From the IMG/VR virus record IMGVR_UViG_3300031753_000024, positions 1 to 37,762 of that record: a stretch of DNA of 37,762 nucleotides; one strand, written 5' to 3'. The stretch comes from a virus. Positions 2,453 to 37,762 of the stretch are shown here, in pieces. The notes under the pieces are model-generated. The model saw nothing but the letters and a program-made list of their open reading frames with translations. It searched no databases and was not told the DNA's origin. Made by a program: the position numbers and the translations under genes. Position 1 is the first letter of the stretch; the number at the start of each line of letters is the position of its first letter.

Positions 2453-2806
2453 ATGAAACAACCGCGCGCCATTCGGCAAATTCCGAGCACGGTCACAGAG
2501 GTTGACCTTGCAACCGGCCGCGAAACCCACAAGCCGGCGGCCTGGGACATCCTGCCGCCGGCGGCCGACAAGTGTCAGGTCTGCGCGGTTAAGCATGCGA
2601 CGGCGCAGCCTCACAATGTCCAGTCGCTGTACTACCAGGTGACCTTCAACAGCATGGTCGGCCGCGCGCCGACCTGGGCCGATGCTATGGCCCATTGCAG
2701 TGCATCGATGCGCGAAGCCTGGACAGCTGAACTTAAGCGTCTCGGCCATTGGTCGGAACCGCCGGATGGCGAAAAGCCGGTCGCTCACCACGGTATCGAG
2801 GCATGA
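2453..2806 (+). CDS. Conserved-looking hypothetical phage protein with CxxC
   Basis: A 117-aa protein with a CQVC motif (residues 42-45), several His residues and a C-terminal helix (CSASMREAWTAELKRLGHW). The strong Shine-Dalgarno stretch GGAGCGAGGGGG lies just upstream of ATG 2453. A 19-aa frame (2397-2456) overlaps both the previous stop and this start, so translation is probably coupled. The YYQVTFNSMVGR and WADAMAHCS segments look like a family seen in rhizobial prophages, but I cannot name a function. A single zinc-binding CxxC is possible. Confidence 0.65.
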   Translation: MKQPRAIRQIPSTVTEVDLATGRETHKPAAWDILPPAADKCQVCAVKHATAQPHNVQSLYYQVTFNSMVGRAPTWADAMAHCSASMREAWTAELKRLGHWSEPPDGEKPVAHHGIEA

Positions 2807-3403
2807 TCATGAGCGGACAGCATACACCGGGTCCGTGGGCGGCTGACGTGCCGGAAGGCGCCGATGCTTGGAACATCCACATATTCCAAGCGGGAACGGA
2901 AAGAGTTCGAGGCCGCGCCATGCGACCGCTCGCAATAGACCTTTTTGCGGGCTTAGGCGGCTGGGCCGAAGGGCTGCTCGCGGAAGGCTACGACGTAATC
3001 GGCTTCGACATCGAGCGCCATGTCTACGGCGATCATCGCTATCCCGGCCTACTGGTGATCCAGGATGTCCGCACGCTGCACGGCTCGCAGTTCAAGGATG
3101 CGGCGCTAATCGTCGCAAGCCCACCGTGCCAAGCCTACAGCTATCGGGCGATGCCGTGGAAGCGCGCCAAGGCGCTGCCGCCCCCCGACAACACGCTGTT
3201 CGAGGCGCGCTTCCGCATCCAGCGCGAGGCCTGCGCGGCGGCGGGAAGGCATATCCCGCTGATCGTGGAGAACGTGCGGGGAGCGCAGAAATGGGTGGGG
3301 CGGGCGCGGTGGTGTTTCGGAAGCTATTATCTGTGGGGCGACGTGCCGGCGCTGATGCCGCCGACGTTGCGGGCCCAAAAGATCAATCCAGATGGAACCA
3401 ACC
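2803..3403 (+). pseudogene. 5' part of a C5 cytosine DNA methyltransferase, interrupted by an IS
   Basis: The frame starts at ATG 2803 (overlapping the previous TGA) or at ATG 2920. Methyltransferase motifs are clear: motif I LAIDLFAGLGGW (residues 43-54), motif IV ASPPCQAY with catalytic Cys109, and motif VI VENVRG (155-160). Residues 1-39 are a separate piece, SGQHTPGPWAADV, that matches the start of a different small phage protein type, so an older in-frame fusion is likely and 2920 may be the original start. The element at 3404-5317 cuts the gene after the codons for D-G-T-N. Removing the element with one copy of the 10-bp duplication continues the frame as GTNHGQGSWFAVA, so the insertion is the cause of the break. 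The left fragment now reads a few codons into the element and stops at 3435. Confidence 0.85.
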
Positions 3404-3418
3404 GTGCCTATCCGGTTG

Positions 3419-4459
3419 TCACCCATGACCACTAACCGTAGGGTGCTTCCACTCGCCGCTGTAGAGCCCGTCATAGGTCGGGCTCTCGCCATTGGCGCCT
3501 ATGCCGAGCAAAGAGCGGAAGGCGTTGAACGGGTAAAAGCGACGGTTGAACCGGAAGGCAAACTCATTGAGGTAGGCTTGCAGGTGCTTGTCGCTAACGC
3601 CGTGATGTGTCCCGCGAAGCCAGCTTTTCAGGTTGCTGAACGCCAAGTGGATGATGGGCAGGTATTCTTCGGCCACCTTCGGGTCATTGGCTTCGACCAC
3701 CGGAAGGTGGGCATAGCCGAGCTTGCCAAGCCCGAAGTAGCTCGGGGCCGCGTCCGTGATAACCATTGCGCCCGGCTGCACCGCTTGCTCGACAAAGCCG
3801 CACAACGACTCAGCCGTTCGGTCTGGCACCACGTCCAGACGCAAGCGGCCAGCATACCGGCCCCCGCGCCGTTCGGGCTTGTCGCCCTTCTTGGGCGGTC
3901 GCTGGCGAACCTCAACCGCGCCGATTACCAGCGTTTGATTATGAACGCCCCGGCCCTCGCCACGGGTAGCGCCGCCGACCCAAGTTTCGTCAACCTCGAC
4001 GTGGTCGCCGCGTGCCAGATTACCGCCAATGCTATCCCGGTCAGGGCGCACCATACCAGCCCGCAGCTTGTGCAGGATTTGAAAGGCCGTCTCGTATCGG
4101 GTCAAGCCAAGCTGGCGCTGGAACTGCACTGCCGACATGCCGGGCGTCATGCTCGAAACGAGGTAGGCTGCCCAGAACCACGTTGTCAGAGCCGAATGCG
4201 TCCGCTCCATGATCGTGTCGGCCGTCAAGGACGTATCGCGGCGGCACTTGCGGCAGCGCAGCACGCCCGGACGCGCCTCGAAACGGAACGGCTCGCCCTT
4301 CTCAAAGCAGTGTGGGCACTCAAAGCCTTTGGGCCAGCGCGCCCCTTCAAGGTAGCGGGCGCACGCTGCGTTGTCCGGGAACAGTTTTTGGAACTGCGGC
4401 AAGGACTTGGGGAACGGCAGATGTTCCCATTTGTGAATGTCGTGGGTGACGGGGGACAT
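3419..4459 (-). CDS. IS1595-family transposase (DDE/DDN type)
   Basis: A full-length 346-aa transposase. The N-terminal zinc-binding part has CPHC (residues about 48-51) and CRKC (about 73-76). The catalytic core shows Asp in HVEVDETWVGG and Asp in VITDAAPSYF. The third position lies in the SNLKSWLRGTHHGVS region, and the C-terminus has KHLQAYLNEFAFRFNRR, the signature of this family. The stop codon abuts the left inverted repeat. The gene starts three bases after the stop of the 71-aa passenger gene, so it is read from an upstream promoter through the passengers. No frameshift is seen, so the element may still be mobile. Confidence 0.93.
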   Translation of the reverse strand: MSPVTHDIHKWEHLPFPKSLPQFQKLFPDNAACARYLEGARWPKGFECPHCFEKGEPFRFEARPGVLRCRKCRRDTSLTADTIMERTHSALTTWFWAAYLVSSMTPGMSAVQFQRQLGLTRYETAFQILHKLRAGMVRPDRDSIGGNLARGDHVEVDETWVGGATRGEGRGVHNQTLVIGAVEVRQRPPKKGDKPERRGGRYAGRLRLDVVPDRTAESLCGFVEQAVQPGAMVITDAAPSYFGLGKLGYAHLPVVEANDPKVAEEYLPIIHLAFSNLKSWLRGTHHGVSDKHLQAYLNEFAFRFNRRFYPFNAFRSLLGIGANGESPTYDGLYSGEWKHPTVSGHG

Positions 4460-5968: not shown

Positions 5969-7252
5969 ATGAAGAAGCGAACCAGACCGGTCGATGGCGT
6001 GACGCGCCGCTACGAATGGGCGCTCTATCCGACGCTCGCGCAAGAAGAAACGCTGCGCCGGCACGCCGTAATGTGCGGCCAGCTATGGAACGCGTTGCTC
6101 GAAATGTGCGAAACCCGCTACCGCCGCGGCTGCCAGGGTGCCCATGTGTTTCATTGCGCGGCTTGCGCGGCCGCAAGCGAGGGTGCCGGCAAGGTCGTGC
6201 TCTGCGGAAATCACGACATGCCGAGCGAGTTCGACATGGGCGGCTGGATTTCGCAGCTGCGCGCTGAATGCCCGGAGTGGCGCGATCTCTCGACCTGGGT
6301 GCCGCGCCGCGTCGCGACCTCGCTTGGCGCTGCCTTCGCCGCCTTCTTCCGCCGCCTCAAGAACGGCGAAGCGGCCGGCTATCCGCACTACAAGACGACG
6401 CACCGGAATCTCGCCGTCCCGCATCGCTGCGTGTCCGGCTGTTCGTTCGCGCCCTACGATCCGGACATGCACGGCACCGTCAACGGGCATGCGCGCAAGA
6501 GCGGCCCCCGCAATTGGATCGTGACAATCAAGGGAATAGTAGGGCCGGTCTGGGCGATGGGCAAGCCGGCAGCCTCAGTTGCCGAATGGACCGATGTCGA
6601 TATTCGCCACCGCGACGGGCGCTGGACGGCATCTGCGGCCATGGCGGTGGCGCCACGCCGGATTGCGGGGTCTCGCCCGATGCAGGTGCGCTTCGATCTG
6701 CTCGACGGCCTTGCGCTCGTCGACAATGTGCCGGAGACGCCGCAAGAGCTGATCGACGCGCAGGCGATCTGCGAGGCCGCCGACGCCAGGAAGCGCGCCT
6801 GCGATCTCGCCTATCCGCGCGGCAAGCGGCTGACCGAGGCCGAGCGCGAAGCGATGCGCCAGCAGCGCGACGCCATCGCCGCCGATCTTGCGCGGGCGGC
6901 ACGCAAGCGGCGCAACGCGCTGCACGTGTGGACGGCGCGCCTGGTCGCGCGAGCCTCCTCGATTATCGTGGTGGCGCCCAAGATCAAGGCGATGACCTCA
7001 ACCGGGCGCGGTACTCGCGCCGCGCCAGGTGCCGCTGTCGGCGATGTGGCTCGCATCAACAGGGCCGTGTTGTCCCTGGCCCCGTCGCTGGCGATCCAGA
7101 TGCTGAAATACAAGGCGGCGGAGTCCGGCATCGAGTGTCGGATCATCGAGGATGAGACGCCGAAGATTGCCATCAGCGGCGCGCTCAAGGGCGCAGCCAG
7201 GGAAGTTCGCCGCCTAAGCCGCCGCGCCGTGCGGGAGCTGGCCAATGCGTGA
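5969..7252 (+). CDS. Compact TnpB/Cas12-like RNA-guided protein, apparently nuclease-dead
   Basis: A 427-aa protein with TnpB/Cas12 layout. Residues 13-50 are the OrfB-type N-terminus (RRYEWALYPTLAQEETLRRH, then MCGQLWNALLEM). Residues 62-82 form an inserted zinc-finger-like motif, C63xxC66 then C79xxH82, in the position where Cas12f proteins also carry a zinc finger. LSTWVPRRVATSL to AAGYPHYK (107-142) is the second helical lobe. RuvC-I is VRFDLLDGLALVDN with Asp243 in place. RuvC-II should read VVE-D-L; here it is IIVVAPKIKAMTS (332-344), so the Glu is missing. After MLKYKAAESGIEC (378-390) the usual CxxC...CxxC zinc ribbon and the RuvC-III DxN are absent; the protein ends in a basic helix. 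No frameshifted remainder is found downstream. The 99-aa gene overlaps its end, and a CRISPR array begins 415 bp after its stop, so it is most likely a type V-like effector that binds without cutting. A relic transposon TnpB is the alternative. Confidence 0.8.
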   Translation: MKKRTRPVDGVTRRYEWALYPTLAQEETLRRHAVMCGQLWNALLEMCETRYRRGCQGAHVFHCAACAAASEGAGKVVLCGNHDMPSEFDMGGWISQLRAECPEWRDLSTWVPRRVATSLGAAFAAFFRRLKNGEAAGYPHYKTTHRNLAVPHRCVSGCSFAPYDPDMHGTVNGHARKSGPRNWIVTIKGIVGPVWAMGKPAASVAEWTDVDIRHRDGRWTASAAMAVAPRRIAGSRPMQVRFDLLDGLALVDNVPETPQELIDAQAICEAADARKRACDLAYPRGKRLTEAEREAMRQQRDAIAADLARAARKRRNALHVWTARLVARASSIIVVAPKIKAMTSTGRGTRAAPGAAVGDVARINRAVLSLAPSLAIQMLKYKAAESGIECRIIEDETPKIAISGALKGAAREVRRLSRRAVRELANA

Positions 7253-7544
7253 CGGCGACCCGTCAATCAGGCGCGAGCTGGCCGGCATGGAGGAGGCCGT
7301 TGCCATGGCGCAGGCGGCGTTCGACGATGCCGTCAACATCCGCGCCAATCTCGCAACAATGCCGATCGACAGCGACGACAAATCGACGCTGCGGCCGGCC
7401 GTGGCGCTGTGCAACATACAGTTGGGTGCGGCCCGCGCAGTATTGACGGCGATGCGGTTGCGGCTGCTCGGGCGCCTGGCGGCGCCGAGACTGGTGATGC
7501 AAGAGGCAAAACAGCTTCGCCTGTCGCGCTCGCGGACGAAATAG
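7245..7544 (+). CDS. 99-aa hypothetical partner of the Cas12-like protein
   Basis: ATG 7245 lies inside the last codons of the Cas12-like gene (8-base overlap), so the two are almost certainly translated together. The protein is mostly helical: an acidic N-terminal helix (RRELAGMEEAVAMAQAAF), a middle segment (DDKSTLRPAVALCNIQLG) and a very basic C-terminal helix ending in SRSRTK. No family is recognised. It contains no Cys, His cluster or RuvC motif that would supply the missing catalytic parts. A role in stabilising the effector or binding crRNA is inferred only from position. Confidence 0.65.
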   Translation: MRDGDPSIRRELAGMEEAVAMAQAAFDDAVNIRANLATMPIDSDDKSTLRPAVALCNIQLGAARAVLTAMRLRLLGRLAAPRLVMQEAKQLRLSRSRTK

Positions 7545-7667: not shown

Positions 7668-8299
7668 GCAGCAACATCCGGCGCGCCGGACCGAAAGCGC
7701 GAGCTCGCGGAGCGCGGCGGTCAGTTCCTCATTGATCGTGGCAGCAACATCCGGCGCGCCGGACCGAAAGCGCGAGTGGCCTAAGCGGGCACAAGGCTGT
7801 GTCGTCCGCGGGGCAGCAACATCCGGCGCGCCGGACCGAAAGCGCGAGCGGAAGCGATGGAAAAGCTGCGGCAAGAAGCTTACGCGCAGCAACATCCGGC
7901 GCGCCGGACCGAAAGCGCGAGCTCCGTAAGACGAAGAACTACGGTCTCCCGGCGTCAAGTGGCAGCAACATCCGGCGCGCCGGACCGAAAGCGCGAGGCG
8001 ATGATCCGCCGAAAAGGGAGAGCCGCCGCCGGCGCACGGCAACAACGCCCGGCGCGCCGGGCCGAAAGCGCGAGCCACCTTTCGCCCGCGCTCAGCGTCG
8101 GTGCGTTTGATCCGCAACAACGCCCGGCGCGCCGGGCCGAAAGCGCGAGTGTGACCGGGAAACGTGTGGGCGTCGGAGGTGCCAAACTCGCAGCAACATC
8201 CGGCGCGCCGGACCGAAAGCGCGAGAAGTTCGCCATGCTGAGTGGGCTCGCCGCTTATCTCGCGCAGCAACATCCGGCGCGCCGGACCGAAAGCGCGAT
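7668..8299 (+). CRISPR. CRISPR array, nine 36-nt repeats and eight spacers
   Basis: Repeats at 7668, 7741, 7813, 7886, 7962, 8039, 8114, 8190 and 8264, each 36 nt. Each begins GCAGCAACATCCGG and ends CGAAAGCGCGAG, with the palindrome TCCGGCGCGCCGGA at repeat bases 10-23. Spacers are 37, 36, 37, 40, 41, 39, 40 and 38 nt. Repeats 6 and 7 share four changes (bases 4, 9, 10, 23), and the changes at 10 and 23 turn a T-A pair into C-G, keeping the hairpin. Repeat 9 ends in T instead of G. No cas1 or cas2 is in the window. Transcription direction is uncertain: the gene order favours +, while the match of spacer 6 (seed and TTC flank) would favour -. Confidence 0.96.
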
Positions 8300-13863: not shown

Positions 13864-13951
13864 GACCGTGTGGCGAAATTGGCAAACGCGCTGGCTTTGG
13901 GTGCCAGTACCCTTCCCACGGGGTTTGTGAGTTCGAATCTCACCACGGTCA
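13864..13951 (+). tRNA. Class II tRNA with leucine-type body and UGG (Pro) anticodon
   Basis: A full cloverleaf can be drawn. Acceptor GACCGTG/CACGGTC (13864-13870 with 13944-13950), A73 at 13951. D arm GCG...CGC with the GG pair in the loop. Anticodon arm CTGGC-TTTGGGT-GCCAG with anticodon TGG at 13898-13900. Long variable arm (ACCC/GGGT). T arm GTGAG-TTCGAAT-CTCAC. The long variable arm and A73 are leucine-type features. A normal tRNA-Leu(UAG) loop reads TTTAGGT, and here the A is G, which gives a proline anticodon. CCA is not encoded directly after A73. It may be functional, or a drifted copy. Confidence 0.8.
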
Positions 13952-13990
13952 CACCATCCCTTGCAACGATTTTGAACGGTTCATTTCAGT

Positions 13991-14248
13991 TCATTTGTGA
14001 ATTGGATCACGGTACATCAGCCGCTTACCTTCCGCGCTCCTGATCGCCTCAGCGGTCCGCGCGCCGTCACCCATCTTGCGGCGGTCCCAGCGGAAGCAGA
14101 ATTCGTCGCAATAGCGATCCAAGTGCTTCGTGCTGACGTGATGGAAGCTTCCCGTGATCCCGCGCTTCAAGAGCGCGAAGTACCCTTCCGCGGTGTTCAC
14201 GTGCACCTTGCCGCGCGCATATTCGCCGCCGCATCGCTCATCAGCCGG
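13991..14248 (-). pseudogene. C-terminal remnant of an IS1595-family transposase
   Basis: Reading leftward from 14248, the frame gives EYARGKVHVNTAEGYF, LLKRGITGSFHH and KHLDRYCDEFCFRWDRRK, the family's C-terminal signature, and ends at 13991. An in-frame TGA at about 14250 and loss of homology upstream show that the N-terminal two thirds, including both catalytic Asp regions, are gone. It differs clearly from the intact copy at 3419-4459, so it is an independent, older arrival. It lies just after the tRNA. Confidence 0.8.
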
Positions 14249-14734: not shown

Positions 14735-17700
14735 TTAATTTCCTGTCGCTCTCTTCATTTTTGCGTCGGCCGCCTCGCGCGGAATTTCAGGGGACTGCAT
14801 CATGATTCTTCCCCGCGCCGACTCGCGCGACTGCCGGAGCACTTCTGAGATCACGTCATGGCGGATGCCGTTAGGCCAGGTGCGCCAGTCGGGCGAGTGC
14901 ACGATGGCGTCGAGCCGCATCTTGGTCATGCGCCCCGCGATGCGGGCGAAGTCGTCGTACTGCTGCTCGCTCAATTCGACATTGCGGATTTTGCGTTCCG
15001 GCAGTGCCGGGTAGATCCCCAAATCAAGCATCGCCTGGTTGACTGGGTCGGTATTGACCTTCTTTTCATAGACTGCGGTGAGTCCCGCATGGAGCAGCGC
15101 ATCGGCATTGGGGATTTCCTCGCCCCAGACGTTGCGGCGCGGCAGCAGGGTCTCGCTCCAGCCGGGCACCTTCTGCTTGATTGCGTCGATGACGGTGCGA
15201 GCTTGGCGCGTGTAGGGATCGCTGGCGCGCGCCATCTGGGCAAGGCCGACCGAGAACGGCAGGAAGGATGAGACGAACTGCTTGAGATAAGCTTCGCCGT
15301 AACGGCCGGGATCCTCGACCGCGCGGATCAGGTCGGCGGGACCGCGCATGAAGCTCTCATCGAGGATATTCTGGGTCACGGCATGCTGGAGATGGGACGC
15401 GGCGAGCAGCATGTCGCCCTGGCTTGCGTCGTGGGCCACATCATACATGTCGGCGGCGATGCCCATCAGCATGCCCATCGGACCCAGCCGGTTCATCTGA
15501 TACCACATATCGCCGATGCGCACCGAATGCGCTTGGTAGACCTCGCGCGACATCAACGCCCGGTGTGGATCGGAGGGTTCCGAGCCGGTGATGTACCCAT
15601 CCATCGCCAGCGAGCCGAAGACGATGGAGAGCGCGGTCCCGGCGAGCATGCGCGCCAGGGCGGTATCCTGGGCGATGTTGCCGTTGTGGCCCATCAGGTC
15701 AGCGCGGATTTCGGGTGACAGGATAGCGCCGAGCGGGGTGCGCCGTAGTACCGCCTGGTTGATGACGTTGGCGCCGATATGGACGAACGGGTCGATGAAT
15801 TTCAGCGGACGGGTTTTACCGAGAATCGGCAAGTCGGTCGCGCTGTTGACGAATTCGGAGAGCTTGCGCACCATGGCGCCGCCTGGCGCCATCAGGGTCG
15901 AGGCATAGGCCTGCTCGTGGGCTGCCGTCATCCAGTCATCGGGCGGAGCCTTGATGCGCTGCCCGATATGGTCGGCGAGATCGTTGCCGGACAGGCCAAG
16001 ACCGACGCCTTCGCGATAGGCGCGCGCGGCGATTTGGCGCGAATAATTGGCAATGGTGTCCATGGAATGGATGGCGGCAACGAGCCGGCCGGGAACGCGG
16101 ATCAGACTGCCGACCGGAATCGTCGGCACGCCGCGAATGGCGATATCGGGGATCTGGCCAAGCGGCGACCAATGGGCCCCGATTGCCGGGGCTCCAGCTT
16201 CGCCGCCCGAGGCGATCAGCGATGCTCCACCGACAACGCCGTCACGTACGCCTCGGAGCGCCGAGAACAGATCCGTGGCGAATTCATGCCAGGTGACGGG
16301 ATCGTTGGTGACGTTGCGGGCGAGTGTCAGTGCGGTATCGCCATAGAACGGCGATAGCGGGCGCGCCTCCTGGCCGGGAAGGAGCGTTGCCTGGCCGGCA
16401 CGAACCGCTTCAAGGCCGCCTTGAAGGGCCTTGGGAATGACGCGGCCCAGTGCCTTGACTTGCTCCCAAGCCTCGCCTGGCCGGACATATTCGCCGGGGC
16501 GACCAGCAGCGACGCGGATGCGGCCGATGGCGCTCGCGAGCAACGTTTCCGGCACGGCCTCCTGGATCATCAGTATCTTGTTGCCGATGAGATAGGTCAT
16601 GTGCGTCGAGGGACCGGAAATCAGCGCATTGACGTATTCCTCAAGCAGCATGCCGCCGGCGCTGCGCTGCTGGGCATCGCGCAGGAACTTGGATACCTTG
16701 GCTGGCGTATTGAGCTTGGCGCCAAGCTTGGCGATCATCTTAAGCTGGAATAGGGTGCGCCCAGTATTTTCCTTGAGAAATTCGTTGAGGTCGGCAGCCT
16801 GCTGCCAGCCTTCGAGGTTCTTGAACGACATACCGAGGGTGCGCCCGGTCTCGGCGGTGACGCCGGAGAGTACCGACTGCATCATGTCGTGGCGGCTCAT
16901 CGCCACTGCGAAAGCCGCAACATCGGCGTCAGTGCCGCCGTCGCGCACCGCCTTCATGGCATCGGACACGATCTGCGCCGAGGCGACGATGGCTTGACGC
17001 AATTTCAGCACTTTGGCGGATAGGCCTTGAGCTCCGCCGAACAGGGTGGCGAGCTTCGCCTCGGTCACGGCATGCGGATCAATGTCGATTGCTTCGGCGG
17101 CATCAAGCAATTCGCCGGTAGTGATGCGGCCGGGACCCTGCGTCCCTACGCGGGCGGCGGATTCATCGATGGCGCGGACAAGGTCGGCGGTGGAGGTGAG
17201 GTTTTCGACCCGGATGTTGCCGTCGCGGCTAACCCAACGGGACTCGCCGCTCCGGCTGAGGTCGGGAACGGGAGTTGGAGCAAGCGGTACAGGTTGAGGT
17301 TCTTCTCGGTTTCCGGATCGGGATGCGGCGTCGCGTAGGCCAGCGCCTTCTCCCCCAGCACTAGCGACGCCTTGGCGCTCCGCGCCATGTTGCGCGCCCA
17401 CGCCGCCGCCCGCGGGCTGAGGTTCGGGCTCGCCGCCAGGCTCGTGTAGTCCTGGAGTTCCTGCGTTGTCAGCGCCTGGCGCAGCGCCAAGCTCGGCGGC
17501 GGCGTTTCTACCAATTTCGGCGGTGAGGCGGGCGAGTTCGGACTCGACTTCATGGGCGATATCCTCGGGAATATCAACATGGGCGCGGCGCAGTTCAGAG
17601 TCAACGCGAGCCTTGGCGGCGTCAGCGTCGTGGGGCGGGATGTGGGCGGCATCGGCCTCGTGGATGTCGGCCAGCGTCTTGCCGGCCTCGCGCTCCGGCG

Positions 17701-20700
17701 CGATCACGGTGCGCTGCGGCTCGGCTGACAGCAGCCGGTCGAACACGCCGCGGATATCGTCGTTGATCGGCGCGCCCAGGCCTTTGATGGTCTTGTAGAT
17801 TTGCAGCAGCCAATCCTTGAACCGAGCGAAGACCGAGGCGAGCTCGGGCGACGGGGCGATGCCCTCGCGCATGTACTGCTCGAAGCCGCGGGCGAATTTC
17901 TCGTGATGTTTCGTCTTGAGCGCATCGGCCGATTCGGCTCCCAGCCATTTCAGGGCGGTGGCGGCATCGGCCTTGAGTCCAGGCGGGGCCTTCTCATGCT
18001 CGGCATCGGCGAGCAGCTCTTCCAGAAAGACATGGCCGCTCTCGTGGATGAATGTCGAGGCGTCGGCCTCGCGCATGATCTGCATGACGGGACGGCGGCC
18101 TGCGGCGAAGGTGACCTTGCCGCGGGCACCCTGGAACAGCGGGAAGCCCTGCTCGACGGCGGCGTCGCGGAGCTTGTCGGTGATATCGAGGGCATGGACG
18201 GGCGTGGCGGTCGCAGGTTCACCCTTGCGCGTCGTGATTTCTATTGGTTCGTGACCGCCGCCGCCAAACTGTTGCGTTTCTGCGCCGCGCTCAGGAGCAG
18301 TTTCAATCTCGGCCTTTCCGACCCTCCCGCCGAATTTCTTCACCAGCTTGTTGACCGTCGCCGGGAGTATCTGGTCGTAGAAGCCGCGCATGCCTTCGCC
18401 GCCGACCACCAGATCGTCGCCGCGCAGGAATTTCACTGGCGTCTCGTCGTCTCCGCCGGGAATGTCATAGTGCGATTCGTCAGAACCCTCGCCCTTAATC
18501 ATGCGGTCGGCAATCTCTTTGCCAACGGCGGAGTCAAGTTGATTCTCGGGACCGATATGCTTCTGGTCGAAGACAACCCTTCCGTCGTGATCGACGGCGG
18601 TCATCTCATAATGCCCTCCCGGTGTTTTCCAATACGCGATTTCAGCGAGATGCTTACTCAGATGGTACCGCGCCGCCTGGGTTTCTCCCGTCGTCCAGGC
18701 GATCTTGTCGTAGCCGTTCTCGGCCGCGTAGCGGATCATCCGTTTCATCGCGAGCTCGGGCCAGGTGGTCTTAAAGGGGGCGTCGGGGACGGCGGAATAA
18801 TTGAGCCTGTTTAGCACCTTCTGAGTTGCGATCTCCTTGGTCGGCAGAGACGCACCCCAGAAACCTAATTGACTTTCCCCGGTGTTTTTGTCGACAGCGA
18901 TAAACCCATTTTTATGTTTAATCTCATAGTCTGAAATACGGCGCCCCCATCGCTCGGGAAACTTGTTGCGGGCATCCTCAAGCGAAAGGATTTCGATGTT
19001 GTCGGGCAATTCAGTCTGGTTGGCATACCCCTCCAGCCTCCCTTCCTGGTGCCGCTTGCTCTGCACCTCCTCGACAAACAAGGTCTTCTTGCCGTCGATG
19101 ACGCGGTCATTAAACCGGACCCAAGCGACCGCGGTCCCGCCGCCTTCGCTGGTGAAATGCACAGCATCCGGTTTATACGGTTCGATTTGTCCCGGCAGCG
19201 TGAGCACCAGCTCGCGATAGCTCTTGCCGCCGGGGAGGGTCACGTGGGAGAATTTGGCTCGATCAGATTCACCGCGCGTGCGGTCGTCAATGGCGCCATG
19301 CAACTCATCTTCTGCAATTTCCCGCGTCGTCGCGCGATTGACAAGATTGCCATCTACAAAAATGTCAAACGGATAGTTCGGATTATTACCGGCACGAATT
19401 TCACCGCGCGACAATTGCTCGGGCGTCAAGCCGCCCTTCTCGACCTCCTTCACCTCGATCCGGTTCGCCCGCACATAATCGGCAATCTCGCCCTTGGTGA
19501 CCGATCCCTTCTGCTCCTTCAGCCAATCCTCAAGCCCGAGCCATTCCATCTCCTCACTCTTCACTCCCGGCATGTTTTTGAGCATGCCGAGCCATTGCTC
19601 GGGGGAGGCCTTCTCCTGTTTGGCCGAAGTGACGGCGCGCTCGACGGCGGAGTAGAAGGGGGGGGCGAGGTCGCGCTGGAACAGTTCGCGCTGCTTCGCC
19701 CCTTCCCCGAACAGCCCCTCTTCCATCGGTTTCTGTTCGACGGTCGGCTTGAGCGGCGCGTTCGCCAACCGCTGCGCGCGCTCGGCATCAGAGATGCGTT
19801 CGGTGCCGGGCAGCCCCATCTGGCCCTCGGCTTCGCGCTCGGCGATGAGATCGCGGCGCTTGCGCTGGTAGAGCCCCATCTCCTCGCCGAGAACGCCCTC
19901 ATCCTCCGGGCGCATCAGTTCGCTGCGGCGGTAGGGTTCCTCCTCCGGCGGCTCGGTCAGGACGCGGGTCGCCTCCAGGAAATCGACGCGGTTCTCCTTG
20001 ACCAGGCCTTCATGCGGCCGGGCGCTGTATTGCTGGGACTCGCCTTCGGCGTCGGGCTTCGAAAGGAGAACGAACGAGCCGTCGGGACGCTCCTCGGCAA
20101 TCAGCAGGTTCTTGACGAAGCCGACATCGACGGTGTTGCCGGGCTCCCAGACCTGGGAAACCCGCGTGCGGTATTCCGGACCGCCGATCTTGATGTGCAG
20201 GTCATGGGCGCGCTTGATGCTCAGGTCGCGCTCCTCGCGCTGCTCCTGGAAATGATCCCACAATTCCGCCGCTCCGGCCGGCAGCGGCTTCGGCGGCTCC
20301 GGGCCTTCGGCATAGGCCGCCTCCGGCTCGTGGCCAGGCCGGTAGAGCTTGCGGCCTTTGGACTCGGCGGATAGCGCGGCGAGCAGATCGTTGATCGTGG
20401 TCTTGCCGCCGCCGGTCTCGCCGGGGGCTTCGTGGAGGTAGCCGGCTTCGACCGCGGCCGCGCGGCCGCGGTCGGGCGTCATACCGCCCTCGCGAAACAG
20501 CCGGCCGAAACCGGGGATGAAAGGGTTCTTGTCGAGTACCGCTTCGAGGTCCGCGGTACGCTGCAGCCCGCCGCGATGAGCGAGGAACTGGAATAGCGAA
20601 AGCTTTGTCTCGTCGATCTGGCGCGGGCCGCGCGGCTGCACGGCGCCGCGCGCCTGCTGCGATCGCATGCCGGGCCCGAGAATTTCCGGAGCCTCGGCGC

Positions 20701-22537
20701 GGTAGAGTTCCTCGGCGCTGCCGAGCGCGCCGCGGAACCAGCCGGCGCGGGCACGGTAACGCGCCGCTATCAATGCGCCCGCAGTCTGTGCCTCCTCGGC
20801 TGGCCGGCCGGCACGGGCGAGCTGGCGGGCGACGTCGTCGCGGATGAATTGAGACAGCGGCTCGGCAAGGACCGAAAGCGGCGGAATTTCCGGTCGCGGA
20901 GCGGCCGGCGCCTCCGGCGTCGCCTGCCCCGCAGTCTGCTCGCCCTCGCGTTTGAGGAATTCCGCTTCACGGTGCGGATAGGGCTTTGTGTAGAGGTCGT
21001 TCGGCGGCGTTTTCGCCTGCTCGTGCTCGGTCTCGCCCACGAGCTTGTGCATCTCTTCCTGATAGCCGTTCCAATCGATGCCGTCGGCTTCGACGGCGGC
21101 ACGTTCAACCTGGAGAGCTTCGCGGTGTGCGGTCTCGTAAGGCTCGCCCGCTTTGGTCATCAGATCGTGCTCGCGGGTCTCGTGCACGTCGAGATACTTC
21201 GCCGGGTCGAACGTAATGCCCTTGACCGTCAGCTCAGCCGGCACCCGCTTGTCGATGTAGGTGGTGCGGCCGTCATTGCTCGATCCGGCGAGGTAGGGAA
21301 CGTCGTGGCCGCGATCGATGGTGCGAGGCGTGGTCGGCTCCGCGACCGGAACGATCGGCGGCGCTTCCGGCTCGAGGATATGCGCTCCGGTCGCCTCCGC
21401 GGCACGGCGGTAAGCCGCATGGATCTGCGGTTCGATTTCGGCGAGTTCCTGATTCGTCGCTACGAGATGCTTGTAGGCCTGCTCGGTGACGCCGGGGCCC
21501 ATCACCTTGCCGTTCCAGGCCTGTAGCGAATTGCGCTGTACAACCAGGGCGTCAAAGCGCCGGAACAGATCCGCCTCCATGCGCCGCGCTGCGGCATGGG
21601 GATCCTCTTTTGCCGGCTCTCCGGTCAGGGATTGCTCGGTTTGCGCCGCGTCGTTGGCGGCCTTCGCGGCATCCGGCGCCATTTCGTGGCTGCCGCGGAA
21701 CACTTCTTCGGTGACGCCGGGGCCCATCACCTTGCCGTTCCAGGCCTGGATCAGGGTGCGCGCCGGTTTCGCGCCGATCTCCGTCAGTGACTCGCCGAAC
21801 CGCCTCGGCTTGTTGAAGATGACACCAAACCCGGTCGAGATCGCGACTTTGGCCCAGTCCGGAGTCTCCCCAGAAGCGGCTTCCTGGCCCAATTCGATGC
21901 CACCCATGACGGCGCCGCCGAACACGCGCGCCGTTGCCGGATGAGCCCTGATGCGCTGCAGGGCGGTGGCATTCTCGGGCGGTTCGAACTTGCCGAGGCG
22001 AGTCGGCTTCATCGTCAACGCGTAAGGCGCAAGCCCGCCCAGGAACGACGCGTAGGGATGCTGCTCCTGATCGAGCTTTTGCTGACGATCATCAAGACCG
22101 ATGGCCTCTTTCCAGGAATCGGGTGCTTTAGAAAGAAGGTAGTCTTGGGCTTTGGACAGCAGGTAACCGCCGCCAAGGGCGCCAGCAACGCCACCGGCAA
22201 CCGCGCCCCACGGACCGCCGACGGCGAAGCCGGCCTCGGCACCGGCGCCGATCGCCGGAAACGACAGCAGCGCCGGTGCGGCGCTACGGGCGGCGCCACG
22301 GGCGAATGCGCCGGTCGCGGACGACTCATCGGGTTCCGGCGGCGGCTTGGCGAAACCAACGATGTTGTCAAGGGCGCCGGGATAAGGCTCGAACTGCGCG
22401 AATGGATTGGCGGTGGATGATCCAGCAGGCGCGGGCACGGCGGATGCCGGGGCCGGAAATGGCATGACCTTGCGCTTGTCCGGATCGAACTGGTCGAACG
22501 GATTGGGCGATGGCGGCTCGAAGGCGCGGTCGGTCAT
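14735..22537 (-). CDS. 2600-aa polyvalent ejection protein (T7 gp16-like) with zincin motif
   Basis: The largest gene. A disordered Pro/Phe-rich start is followed by a Gly/Ala-rich membrane-active segment (about residues 85-130), a trait of proteins ejected with the genome. Residues about 1100-1300 contain FVEEVQSKRHQEGRLEG and MKRMIRYAAENGYDKIAWTT, seen in large polyvalent phage proteins. At 1498-1502 a zinc-protease HExxH (HESGH, inside FIHESGHVFLEEL) follows. The C-terminal third holds a long conserved-looking helical region (GGMLLEEYVNALISGP, then GSEPSDPHRALMSREVY). Position after gp14- and gp15-like genes matches T7 gp16. Residues 264-277 and 339-352 are an identical duplication. I infer injection into the host cell; the peptidase target is unknown. 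Confidence 0.8.
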   Translation of the reverse strand: MTDRAFEPPSPNPFDQFDPDKRKVMPFPAPASAVPAPAGSSTANPFAQFEPYPGALDNIVGFAKPPPEPDESSATGAFARGAARSAAPALLSFPAIGAGAEAGFAVGGPWGAVAGGVAGALGGGYLLSKAQDYLLSKAPDSWKEAIGLDDRQQKLDQEQHPYASFLGGLAPYALTMKPTRLGKFEPPENATALQRIRAHPATARVFGGAVMGGIELGQEAASGETPDWAKVAISTGFGVIFNKPRRFGESLTEIGAKPARTLIQAWNGKVMGPGVTEEVFRGSHEMAPDAAKAANDAAQTEQSLTGEPAKEDPHAAARRMEADLFRRFDALVVQRNSLQAWNGKVMGPGVTEQAYKHLVATNQELAEIEPQIHAAYRRAAEATGAHILEPEAPPIVPVAEPTTPRTIDRGHDVPYLAGSSNDGRTTYIDKRVPAELTVKGITFDPAKYLDVHETREHDLMTKAGEPYETAHREALQVERAAVEADGIDWNGYQEEMHKLVGETEHEQAKTPPNDLYTKPYPHREAEFLKREGEQTAGQATPEAPAAPRPEIPPLSVLAEPLSQFIRDDVARQLARAGRPAEEAQTAGALIAARYRARAGWFRGALGSAEELYRAEAPEILGPGMRSQQARGAVQPRGPRQIDETKLSLFQFLAHRGGLQRTADLEAVLDKNPFIPGFGRLFREGGMTPDRGRAAAVEAGYLHEAPGETGGGKTTINDLLAALSAESKGRKLYRPGHEPEAAYAEGPEPPKPLPAGAAELWDHFQEQREERDLSIKRAHDLHIKIGGPEYRTRVSQVWEPGNTVDVGFVKNLLIAEERPDGSFVLLSKPDAEGESQQYSARPHEGLVKENRVDFLEATRVLTEPPEEEPYRRSELMRPEDEGVLGEEMGLYQRKRRDLIAEREAEGQMGLPGTERISDAERAQRLANAPLKPTVEQKPMEEGLFGEGAKQRELFQRDLAPPFYSAVERAVTSAKQEKASPEQWLGMLKNMPGVKSEEMEWLGLEDWLKEQKGSVTKGEIADYVRANRIEVKEVEKGGLTPEQLSRGEIRAGNNPNYPFDIFVDGNLVNRATTREIAEDELHGAIDDRTRGESDRAKFSHVTLPGGKSYRELVLTLPGQIEPYKPDAVHFTSEGGGTAVAWVRFNDRVIDGKKTLFVEEVQSKRHQEGRLEGYANQTELPDNIEILSLEDARNKFPERWGRRISDYEIKHKNGFIAVDKNTGESQLGFWGASLPTKEIATQKVLNRLNYSAVPDAPFKTTWPELAMKRMIRYAAENGYDKIAWTTGETQAARYHLSKHLAEIAYWKTPGGHYEMTAVDHDGRVVFDQKHIGPENQLDSAVGKEIADRMIKGEGSDESHYDIPGGDDETPVKFLRGDDLVVGGEGMRGFYDQILPATVNKLVKKFGGRVGKAEIETAPERGAETQQFGGGGHEPIEITTRKGEPATATPVHALDITDKLRDAAVEQGFPLFQGARGKVTFAAGRRPVMQIMREADASTFIHESGHVFLEELLADAEHEKAPPGLKADAATALKWLGAESADALKTKHHEKFARGFEQYMREGIAPSPELASVFARFKDWLLQIYKTIKGLGAPINDDIRGVFDRLLSAEPQRTVIAPEREAGKTLADIHEADAAHIPPHDADAAKARVDSELRRAHVDIPEDIAHEVESELARLTAEIGRNAAAELGAAPGADNAGTPGLHEPGGEPEPQPAGGGVGAQHGAERQGVASAGGEGAGLRDAASRSGNREEPQPVPLAPTPVPDLSRSGESRWVSRDGNIRVENLTSTADLVRAIDESAARVGTQGPGRITTGELLDAAEAIDIDPHAVTEAKLATLFGGAQGLSAKVLKLRQAIVASAQIVSDAMKAVRDGGTDADVAAFAVAMSRHDMMQSVLSGVTAETGRTLGMSFKNLEGWQQAADLNEFLKENTGRTLFQLKMIAKLGAKLNTPAKVSKFLRDAQQRSAGGMLLEEYVNALISGPSTHMTYLIGNKILMIQEAVPETLLASAIGRIRVAAGRPGEYVRPGEAWEQVKALGRVIPKALQGGLEAVRAGQATLLPGQEARPLSPFYGDTALTLARNVTNDPVTWHEFATDLFSALRGVRDGVVGGASLIASGGEAGAPAIGAHWSPLGQIPDIAIRGVPTIPVGSLIRVPGRLVAAIHSMDTIANYSRQIAARAYREGVGLGLSGNDLADHIGQRIKAPPDDWMTAAHEQAYASTLMAPGGAMVRKLSEFVNSATDLPILGKTRPLKFIDPFVHIGANVINQAVLRRTPLGAILSPEIRADLMGHNGNIAQDTALARMLAGTALSIVFGSLAMDGYITGSEPSDPHRALMSREVYQAHSVRIGDMWYQMNRLGPMGMLMGIAADMYDVAHDASQGDMLLAASHLQHAVTQNILDESFMRGPADLIRAVEDPGRYGEAYLKQFVSSFLPFSVGLAQMARASDPYTRQARTVIDAIKQKVPGWSETLLPRRNVWGEEIPNADALLHAGLTAVYEKKVNTDPVNQAMLDLGIYPALPERKIRNVELSEQQYDDFARIAGRMTKMRLDAIVHSPDWRTWPNGIRHDVISEVLRQSRESARGRIMMQSPEIPREAADAKMKRATGN
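21483..21748 (+). repeat. 41-bp perfect direct repeat inside the polyvalent gene
   Basis: 21483-21523 and 21708-21748 are identical. Both encode QAWNGKVMGPGVTE in frame, 75 codons apart. The sequence between carries an Ala/Asp/Glu-rich helix. Either it is a local duplication or the motif has a structural role and was copied. Confidence 0.9.
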
Positions 22538-36048: not shown

Positions 36049-37762
36049 TCAGCCTGTCATGGCCAAGCCGAGCGGATGATAGTCGTCGTTGTCGTGGCCA
36101 AGATCACGTTCGAGCAGCCACGATGTTGTCGCAAACGCGGTCCAGGTCGTGCCGCCATCGGTGTTGATGTAGAGCCGGTTATTCTGGGTGCCGTCGCTGC
36201 GTAGATAGATCGAACCTTTCGCCGCACTCAGCGTCGGTGCGTTTGATCCGAAGCAAATACCAAAATTTGCGGTAGAGGATATAAGGATGCAAGTCCCGGT
36301 GGTTCCGCCGGCCGGGATCGCGGTGCCGCTCCACGCGGTAACCGAAGACGCGGAATTGATCAGTCCACCGAACCAACCGGCGCCAGCAACGCCGAGGCCG
36401 CCGCCTGCTTGCAGCGACCCGGTCGAGGTCGATGTCGCTGCCGTGGCGTCAGAGGCAATCACCGGGCCGCCAGATAGCGTCCAATTGGTAGCGTTGTAGC
36501 GCGCCCTGATAGTGCCGGCACCATCAGAAAGGATGACGTTGCCCGCAGTCGCGGCGCCTAGTCCGGTGACCTGGGCACCGAGCACCGTATTGTTGGAGCC
36601 AGTGGCAAGCCCGCGGCATGTGTCGAATCCGACGCAGGTGTTGCTGCTGCCACCCGCGAGGTCATAGAGGGTATTGGGACCGATCGCCGTGTTCTGGCTA
36701 TCCGTGACCGATATGCCGAGTGCTTGGTAGCCAAACGCCACATTGTCATGTCCGGTCGTGATCGTTGTTGCCGCCTGATAGCCGAAGGCATCGTTCCGCG
36801 TCCCCGTCGTGCTCGATATGAGGGCAGCACTGCCGAAGGCGTCATTGAACGATCCGGTGCCCTGGTTCAGGGCCGAATAACCGAATGCACTATTGTCCGT
36901 TCCGGTCGTGACCCGCGCCAGCGTTCCGTAGCCGACTGCGGTGCTGCGCGATCCGGTCGTATTGAAAAGAAGCGCAGACCAACCGAGGGCCGTATTCGAA
37001 CTCCCGGTTGTGTTCGACCACAGCGATTGGAATCCAACGGCCGCGTTGAACGTGCCCGTCGTGTTGACCTGCAGCGATTGGCTCCCGACCGCCGTGTTCT
37101 GCGAGGCGGTATTGTCATAGAGCGCCGCTTGGCCGACGGCAGTGTTGTCGGTGCCGGTCTTGTTGGTCAGCAGCGCGTTGAAGCCGAATGCGGAATTGCT
37201 GTAGCCCGTCGTCGTCTCGCCGAGCGCCAAGTTGCCGAACGCCGCATTGCGGTATCCGGTTGTGATCGCCGCACCGGCGCTGGAGCCGAAAGCATCGTTC
37301 GGTCCGAGCAGGCCCACCGCGGCGAAGAGCGCTTGGGCGCCGAATGCGGTGCTGTTGCTCCCGGTGCTGATAGTGAACAGCGCCGAATATCCCATGGCGG
37401 TGTTGAACGTGCCCGTGGCGTTCGAGTGCATCGCCGCCGAGCCGAATACGGAGTTCGCATATCCGGTCGTGTTGTAAGAAAACGTGTCGTAGCCGAGTGC
37501 GGTATTGCGAAAACCGGTCGTGTCCAGCCGCCCGGTCCCGATGCCGTAGAAGGAGTTTCCCATGTTGGCGGCCAGCGCGTACCCGGCATTGAAACCGGCC
37601 ATCTGGCTTTCATTGCCGTTCTGCAACGCATCGTAGATCAGTTGCGCGAGGACGATATAGCCAGCGGGGCTGGGATGCAGTCCATCAAGCGGCGCATAGG
37701 GAAGCGTCCATAAATTATCCGGGTCGCCGCCAGAGTAGTACACACCCATGGGATCTGGCGAG
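36049..37762 (-). CDS. Tail spike or fibre with YadA-like repeats and esterase end (partial)
   Basis: The frame is open to the right edge (an ATG at 37749 is internal, because the frame continues upstream as S-P-D-P). The first visible part has DGLHPSPAGYIVLAQLIYDA with the Asp-x-x-His pair of SGNH/GDSL esterases, so the catalytic domain lies mostly outside the window. Residues about 60-400 are repeats like NTAVGSQSLQVNTTG, the trimeric head repeat of YadA-type adhesins, about 14 residues each. The C-terminus has NAPTLSAAKGSIYLRSDG and a closing TWTAFATTSW segment, common in phage tail proteins. Spacer 6 of the array matches the DNA for NAPTLSAAKG. It probably binds and de-acylates host surface glycans. 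Confidence 0.85.
   Translation of the reverse strand, partial: SPDPMGVYYSGGDPDNLWTLPYAPLDGLHPSPAGYIVLAQLIYDALQNGNESQMAGFNAGYALAANMGNSFYGIGTGRLDTTGFRNTALGYDTFSYNTTGYANSVFGSAAMHSNATGTFNTAMGYSALFTISTGSNSTAFGAQALFAAVGLLGPNDAFGSSAGAAITTGYRNAAFGNLALGETTTGYSNSAFGFNALLTNKTGTDNTAVGQAALYDNTASQNTAVGSQSLQVNTTGTFNAAVGFQSLWSNTTGSSNTALGWSALLFNTTGSRSTAVGYGTLARVTTGTDNSAFGYSALNQGTGSFNDAFGSAALISSTTGTRNDAFGYQAATTITTGHDNVAFGYQALGISVTDSQNTAIGPNTLYDLAGGSSNTCVGFDTCRGLATGSNNTVLGAQVTGLGAATAGNVILSDGAGTIRARYNATNWTLSGGPVIASDATAATSTSTGSLQAGGGLGVAGAGWFGGLINSASSVTAWSGTAIPAGGTTGTCILISSTANFGICFGSNAPTLSAAKGSIYLRSDGTQNNRLYINTDGGTTWTAFATTSWLLERDLGHDNDDYHPLGLAMTG
36214..36250 (-). other. Sequence matched by CRISPR spacer 6 (candidate protospacer)
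   Basis: 36227-36249 is identical to spacer bases 17-39 (23 bases, 24 with the repeat's first G). 36214-36225 matches a further 12 bases after one extra C in the spacer, with one mismatch at 36226. On the - strand the sequence just 5' of the match is TTTGCTTC, so the three bases next to it are TTC, a TTN-type flank. Confidence 0.85.

Follow-up and report, generated by a model that had tools for sequence, protein, structure and literature searches.

Nuclease-dead members of the Cas12 and TnpB families have natural uses in plasmid conflict (Cas12m), in transposition (Cas12k) and in the repression of host genes (TldR). Here we describe an array of clustered regularly interspaced short palindromic repeats (CRISPR) and a neighbouring gene for a predicted nuclease-dead, TnpB/Cas12-like effector in a phage genome, the IMG/VR virus record IMGVR_UViG_3300031753_000024 (37,762 bases; this whole record is referred to as the window). 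One spacer of the array, spacer 6, matches the tail-spike gene of the same phage. A non-cutting phage system aimed at the phage's own late gene would, if the interpretation holds, add self-regulation, or the exclusion of kin without suicide, to the known uses.

The nearest described case is that of cyanophage vB_AphaS-CL131, in which a type V-U2, TnpB-like effector lies beside a 10-spacer array with 36-base repeats and no other cas genes (PMC6293099); the excerpt of that report used here mentions no spacer matching the phage's own genome and describes one spacer partly matching a host primase pseudogene. TnpB or Cas12 genes with arrays were also reported for landfill phages (PMC12607003). The viral mini-CRISPR arrays of SPV1 and SPV2 carry spacers against related viruses and have been linked to interviral conflict (PMC6858448, PMC11656645). 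They combine a host effector with repeats identical to those of the host, whereas the present phage encodes an effector itself, and no match to its repeat sequence was found elsewhere in the searched collections.

In its mode of action, the system may be likened to Cas12m or TldR. Type V-M systems (Cas12m), carried by plasmids and some prophages, have a compact type V effector without a working nuclease, whose binding, dependent on a protospacer-adjacent motif (PAM), silences transcription and can stop phages (PMC11013384, PMC11656645). In E. coli, Cas12m gives protection from phages, and it binds T- and C-rich PAM sites without cleaving the DNA (PMC11013384). The proteins differ in size and active site: Cas12m has about 596 residues, with a non-canonical HDD site in Cas12m2, whereas the effector described here has 427 residues and has lost two acidic residues and the zinc finger. 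No Cas12m model was found among the PADLOC matches up to E 10, and the effector was not placed in this family. TldR proteins are TnpB-derived, RuvC-inactivated, phage-encoded RNA-guided repressors of prophages (PMC13418256), and the RuvC site has lost catalytic residues here as well; they use one guide RNA beside the gene and target host flagellin (PMC13418256), whereas here a nine-repeat array and a phage gene are involved. The best profile matches of the effector were to type V-F (Cas12f) and the putative type V-U4, but these are treated as nucleases with a DED site, which is lost in the present effector, and no trans-activating CRISPR RNA (tracrRNA) could be pinned down at this locus. No report of a phage CRISPR guide directed against its own genome was found in the literature searched, in a search that was not exhaustive.

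Spacer 6 and its match in the tail-spike gene

The array, the effector gene and the matched site have the following positions in the window:

7668-8299, minus strand (inferred): CRISPR array, nine repeats of 36 bases and eight spacers of 36-41 bases
8039-8074, minus strand: variant repeat R6, one flank of spacer 6
8075-8113, minus strand: spacer 6, the self-matching guide, 39 bases; in the minus-strand reading GGATCAAACGCACCGACGCTGAG... adjoins the GTTGTTGC end of the repeat
8114-8149, minus strand: variant repeat R7, the other flank of spacer 6; 5' handle of CRISPR RNA (crRNA) 6 if the minus-strand reading holds
36214-36249, minus strand: self target (protospacer), in which 36227-36249 match the 23 PAM-proximal guide bases exactly
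36250-36252, minus strand: TTC, candidate TTN-type PAM directly 5' of the target; also the conserved Phe codon of the tail motif
36049-37762, minus strand: tail-spike gene (PHROG 4636 tail spike, 3.1e-40; phrog_23837, 2.7e-51), with the target near its 3' end
5969-7252, plus strand: effector gene, 427 residues, TnpB superfamily, nearest to Cas12f/Cas12u4 profiles, predicted nuclease-dead
7245-7544, plus strand: small open reading frame, 99 residues, overlapping the effector 3' end; no family match

The match of spacer 6 to the tail-spike gene is real and far beyond chance. Bases 17-39 of the spacer are identical to 36227-36249 (23 of 23), and the homology extends over 36214-36226, interrupted by one mismatch and one additional spacer base, the last two bases being unmatched; spacer 6 alone aligned to the target with 35 of 37 columns identical and one gap. 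When the array was compared with the record by blastn, the tail-spike site was the sole other match (E 4.5e-11). The longest exact matches of spacers 1-8 to the rest of the window were 12, 10, 10, 10, 12, 23, 10 and 11 bases, respectively, and 60 simulated windows matched in composition gave longest shared words of 12-16 bases. These results agree with the preliminary description, which had reported the 23-base identity with its imperfect extension and had considered it extremely unlikely by chance. One correction is needed: the tail-spike reading frame is still open at the contig end (37762), and the gene is thus truncated at its 5' end.

The target encodes G-S-N-A-P-T-L-S-A-A-K-G-S, which lies within the widespread tail motif G-S-x-A-P-T-L-S-A-A-K-G-S. 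Relatives of this motif were encoded by 193 viral stretches, of which 79 of the best were compared. The relatives matched the 23-base seed in at most 18 positions, against 23 of 23 for the phage's own gene, with which the spacer shares all synonymous codon choices (23/23). A rare Asn codon is also common to spacer 6 and this gene; Asn was found in 0 of 64 relatives. The exact 18-base seed was found nowhere else in the IMG/VR records searched, a set that may lack records very close to that of the window. The private Asn codon, the full match against the partial matches of the relatives and the absence of the seed elsewhere indicate that spacer 6 most likely derives from the tail-spike gene of the phage's own lineage, a very close relative being a possible source. 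The motif is as common in phage tail proteins as had first been noted, but the origin from a competing phage that the preliminary description had put forward is already disfavoured.

Two viral contigs matched 22 of the 23 seed bases (L116, 4507-4529; L117, 1443-1465), within an unrelated viral gene with a stop-to-stop frame of approximately 167 residues. They were rejected as the source of the spacer: the gene is different, TCG occupies the place of the TTN PAM and the distal bases are unmatched.

Four differences separate spacer 6 from its own target, all of them PAM-distal and including one frameshifting base. The two end bases alter a Ser codon shared by all the relatives; the motif ends in G-S in 79 of 79, a count that depends in part on the search pattern, in which S, T, D or A could follow G. 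Because the extra base shifts the frame and the Ser codon is constant, these changes appear to be derived in the spacer. The portion of the guide that would be read by a Cas12-type effector (about 17 pairs in Cas12m2, PMC10442227) is intact.

Seven of the nine repeats are identical across their first 35 bases, and the last repeat ends in T instead of G. Repeats R6 and R7 are identical to each other and four transitions away from the common repeat, and spacer 6 is the only one of the eight spacers with a variant repeat on both sides. Two variant repeats in the middle of the array would not easily arise by ordinary growth at one end; the pair could be explained if the unit had been imported through recombination, or if it were a private guide of the kind that CRISPR-associated transposons use. 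With eight spacers, the self-matching one would fall between the variant repeats by chance about once in eight times, and the coincidence is therefore taken as a lead only. No PF01867 (cas1) or PF09827 (cas2) match was found in the record, for which the controls were positive; adaptation genes are absent and the locus is not an autonomous adaptive system.

Effector and reading direction of the array

As in class 2 type V systems in the broad sense, a single TnpB/Cas12-like effector gene lies beside a CRISPR array. PADLOC gave matches of the effector to Cas12f (5.9e-18, 63 bits) and Cas12u4 (1.6e-16, 58 bits), each covering part of the profile, and Pfam gave HTH_OrfB_IS605 (1.7e-07), the OrfB/TnpB N-terminal domain; similarity to guided TnpB was below threshold. 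Single-sequence structure prediction gave no reliable model (pLDDT 41.5).

The active site was read from alignments with three TnpB proteins and with the TnpB-like PDB chain 9j09, deposited as a transposase. The RuvC-I Asp is present (Asp243), Val335 takes the place of the RuvC-II Glu in the 9j09 alignment, and the RuvC-III Asp is absent, with Leu, by eye, at its position in the C-terminal alignment. Two of the three catalytic residues of the RuvC D-E-D triad are lost, and the C-terminal CxxC...CxxC zinc finger is missing. On the strength of these losses the effector is strongly predicted to be nuclease-dead, and should bind its target rather than cut it. The non-cutting effector that the preliminary description had considered as a possibility is thereby very probable. 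The system is left unassigned, as a nuclease-dead one of type V-U-like character.

A cysteine-rich insertion absent from the aligned TnpBs was observed at effector residues 55-82 (C55, C63xxC66, C79xxH), which is perhaps a zinc finger in the recognition lobe. A Cas12f-profile match in one sister phage was discarded: it is a short stretch with an internal stop and no TnpB-like gene around it. Scans for a tracrRNA near the locus, by duplex formation and by similarity, yielded numerous weak candidates in this GC-rich region, none of them a clear anti-repeat.

The array is probably transcribed from the minus strand. In this direction the exact 23 bases adjoin the repeat, where Cas12 guides have their seed, and the target carries at its 5' side a TTC that resembles a Cas12 PAM; perfect PAM-proximal complementarity together with a 5' TTC occurs only in the minus-strand reading. 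The PAM candidate is based on one target and lies at a Phe codon conserved in the relatives anyway, TTT or TTC immediately preceding the motif in 56 of the 79. The plus-strand reading, in which the mismatches would adjoin the repeat without a T-rich 5' flank, was rejected. On the minus strand both repeat types form a hairpin of six pairs, against five for the common repeat on the plus strand, and the changes in the variant repeats keep the minus-strand hairpin (G-U to G-C and U-A to C-G). Since there are two repeat types only and the covariation did not beat the shuffles (161/500), which often did equally well, the hairpin is a weak sign of orientation and serves as a consistency check. A minus-strand guide would run in the same sense as the spike mRNA. 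Its partner would be the template strand, at which dCas12a blocks elongation best (PMC8053165).

Proposed interference against close kin and the rival explanations

We assign a probability of about 0.4 to the reading in which spacer 6 serves the phage in CRISPR interference, as a guide against close kin carrying the same private site, and is tolerated on the phage itself. The phage would thus carry a minimal RNA-guided DNA-binding system, consisting of a compact nuclease-dead TnpB/Cas12f-like effector and the eight-spacer array, without cas1 and cas2. A crRNA 6 processed from the array would lead the effector to 36227-36249 beside the TTC PAM, where it could pair with 23 bases of the template strand and block RNA polymerase, as Cas12m and dCas12a do. 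The guide-target duplex of Cas12m2 ends near position 17 (PMC10442227), so that 23 pairs would suffice. The gain would most likely be the silencing of a late (tail) gene in closely related co-infecting or superinfecting phages. Expression of effector and array would at any time silence the phage's own spike gene as well, a self-match that would be tolerated because nothing would be cut.

Several observations weigh against interference with kin. For the other seven spacers no convincing target was found in the window, in phages, in plasmids, in the fetched loci or in 39 related viral records, and thus nothing directly indicates that the array targets phages. No promoter-like site was seen near the array. 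No close relative of the effector was found in the viral_contigs, genome_contigs, phages and plasmids collections or in 48 viral records with the tail motif, so that distant homologues are the only basis for its presumed activity; an effector that is dead and has a self-matching guide might simply be inert. Blocking the phage's own spike gene in lytic growth would be costly unless it were timed. Finally, a terminator-like site follows the target at 36071-36049 and may limit polar effects on downstream genes; with the target near the 3' end of the spike gene as well, the effect on these genes is uncertain.

Spacer 6 could also be a relic, self-derived, gained accidentally or through recombination with another array, and now decaying beside a binding-only, perhaps unexpressed effector that renders it harmless. 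The four accumulated PAM-distal differences, one of them frameshifting, and the absence of cas1 and cas2 are consistent with this possibility, and the mid-array variant pair suggests recombinational import, as stepwise acquisition at the array end would require several back-mutations. It is made doubtful by the effector reading frame, intact over its 427 codons, by the seven repeats that have stayed identical across 35 bases and by the unchanged usable part of the guide. It is slightly less likely that the phage turned the one array unit marked by variant repeats into a private guide with which the nuclease-dead Cas12-like protein represses its own tail-spike gene, in lysogeny or early in infection. 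Such dedicated self-regulation would be a natural case of CRISPR interference by a virus on itself. It would explain why spacer 6 alone is bounded by variant repeats that keep the minus-strand hairpin, and why all 23 PAM-proximal bases have been kept and the differences, most of which look derived in the spacer, are PAM-distal; in addition, Type I-F3 CRISPR-associated transposons use divergent repeats for self-genome homing guides (PMC12774636) and guides of only 6 nt can suffice for gene repression by prophage TldRs (PMC13418256). However, the target is near the gene's 3' end and includes no promoter, the flanking by variant repeats has the chance level of roughly 1 in 8 already given, and lysogeny is unsupported, since no integrase or resolvase family was found in the record.

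Two further explanations carry less weight. If another phage, a competitor carrying a related spike, had supplied the spacer, the self-match would be a by-product of the conserved motif; the motif and its preceding Phe codon are indeed widespread in viral tail proteins, and the unrelated gene on two viral contigs comes within one base of the seed. This origin is nevertheless improbable, given the lower matches of the relatives, their lack of the Asn codon, the seed's absence from IMG/VR as searched, and the TCG flank and missing distal match of those contigs. The array and the spike gene might instead stem from different genomes joined in one contig. The modules are separated or flanked by an IS1595-type transposase (3419-4459) and a tRNA-Pro with an insertion sequence (IS) fragment (13864-14206), and bases 1-127 are repeated at 211-337, but an assembly chimera is highly improbable: the private spacer-target match links both parts, and a phage recombinase gene is found on the array side as are phage structural genes on the other.

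Surrounding features of the phage genome

The window represents a tailed, podovirus-like phage. Its minus strand encodes tail and internal virion proteins, an endolysin and the tail spike; its plus strand carries a gene for a YqaJ exonuclease, which is closest to Bradyrhizobium prophage exonucleases (59%). The phage is considered a virus of soil-type bacteria.

The transposase at 3419-4459 (minus strand) is an intact-looking one of the IS1595/ISXO2 type. It is preceded by a C5 DNA methyltransferase frame (2749-3435) that matches the first third of the profile only and may have been cut by the transposase insertion. At 13864-14206, between the early and late gene blocks, the tRNA-Pro (TGG) is followed by a fragment resembling the C-terminus of an IS1595 transposase; this region may be an attachment site or host DNA. 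At the left contig end, bases 1-127 recur without a mismatch at 211-337 as a direct repeat of 127 bases, which might reflect the assembly or a terminal repeat. Pentapeptide repeats of the form A[NDS]L[AD][GR] are encoded at 1559-2233 by a long run of 15-base units, and 14735-22537 (minus strand) encodes a virion protein of 2600 residues that contains a repeated QAWNGKVMGPGVTE segment and weakly matches internal-virion and endolysin profiles.
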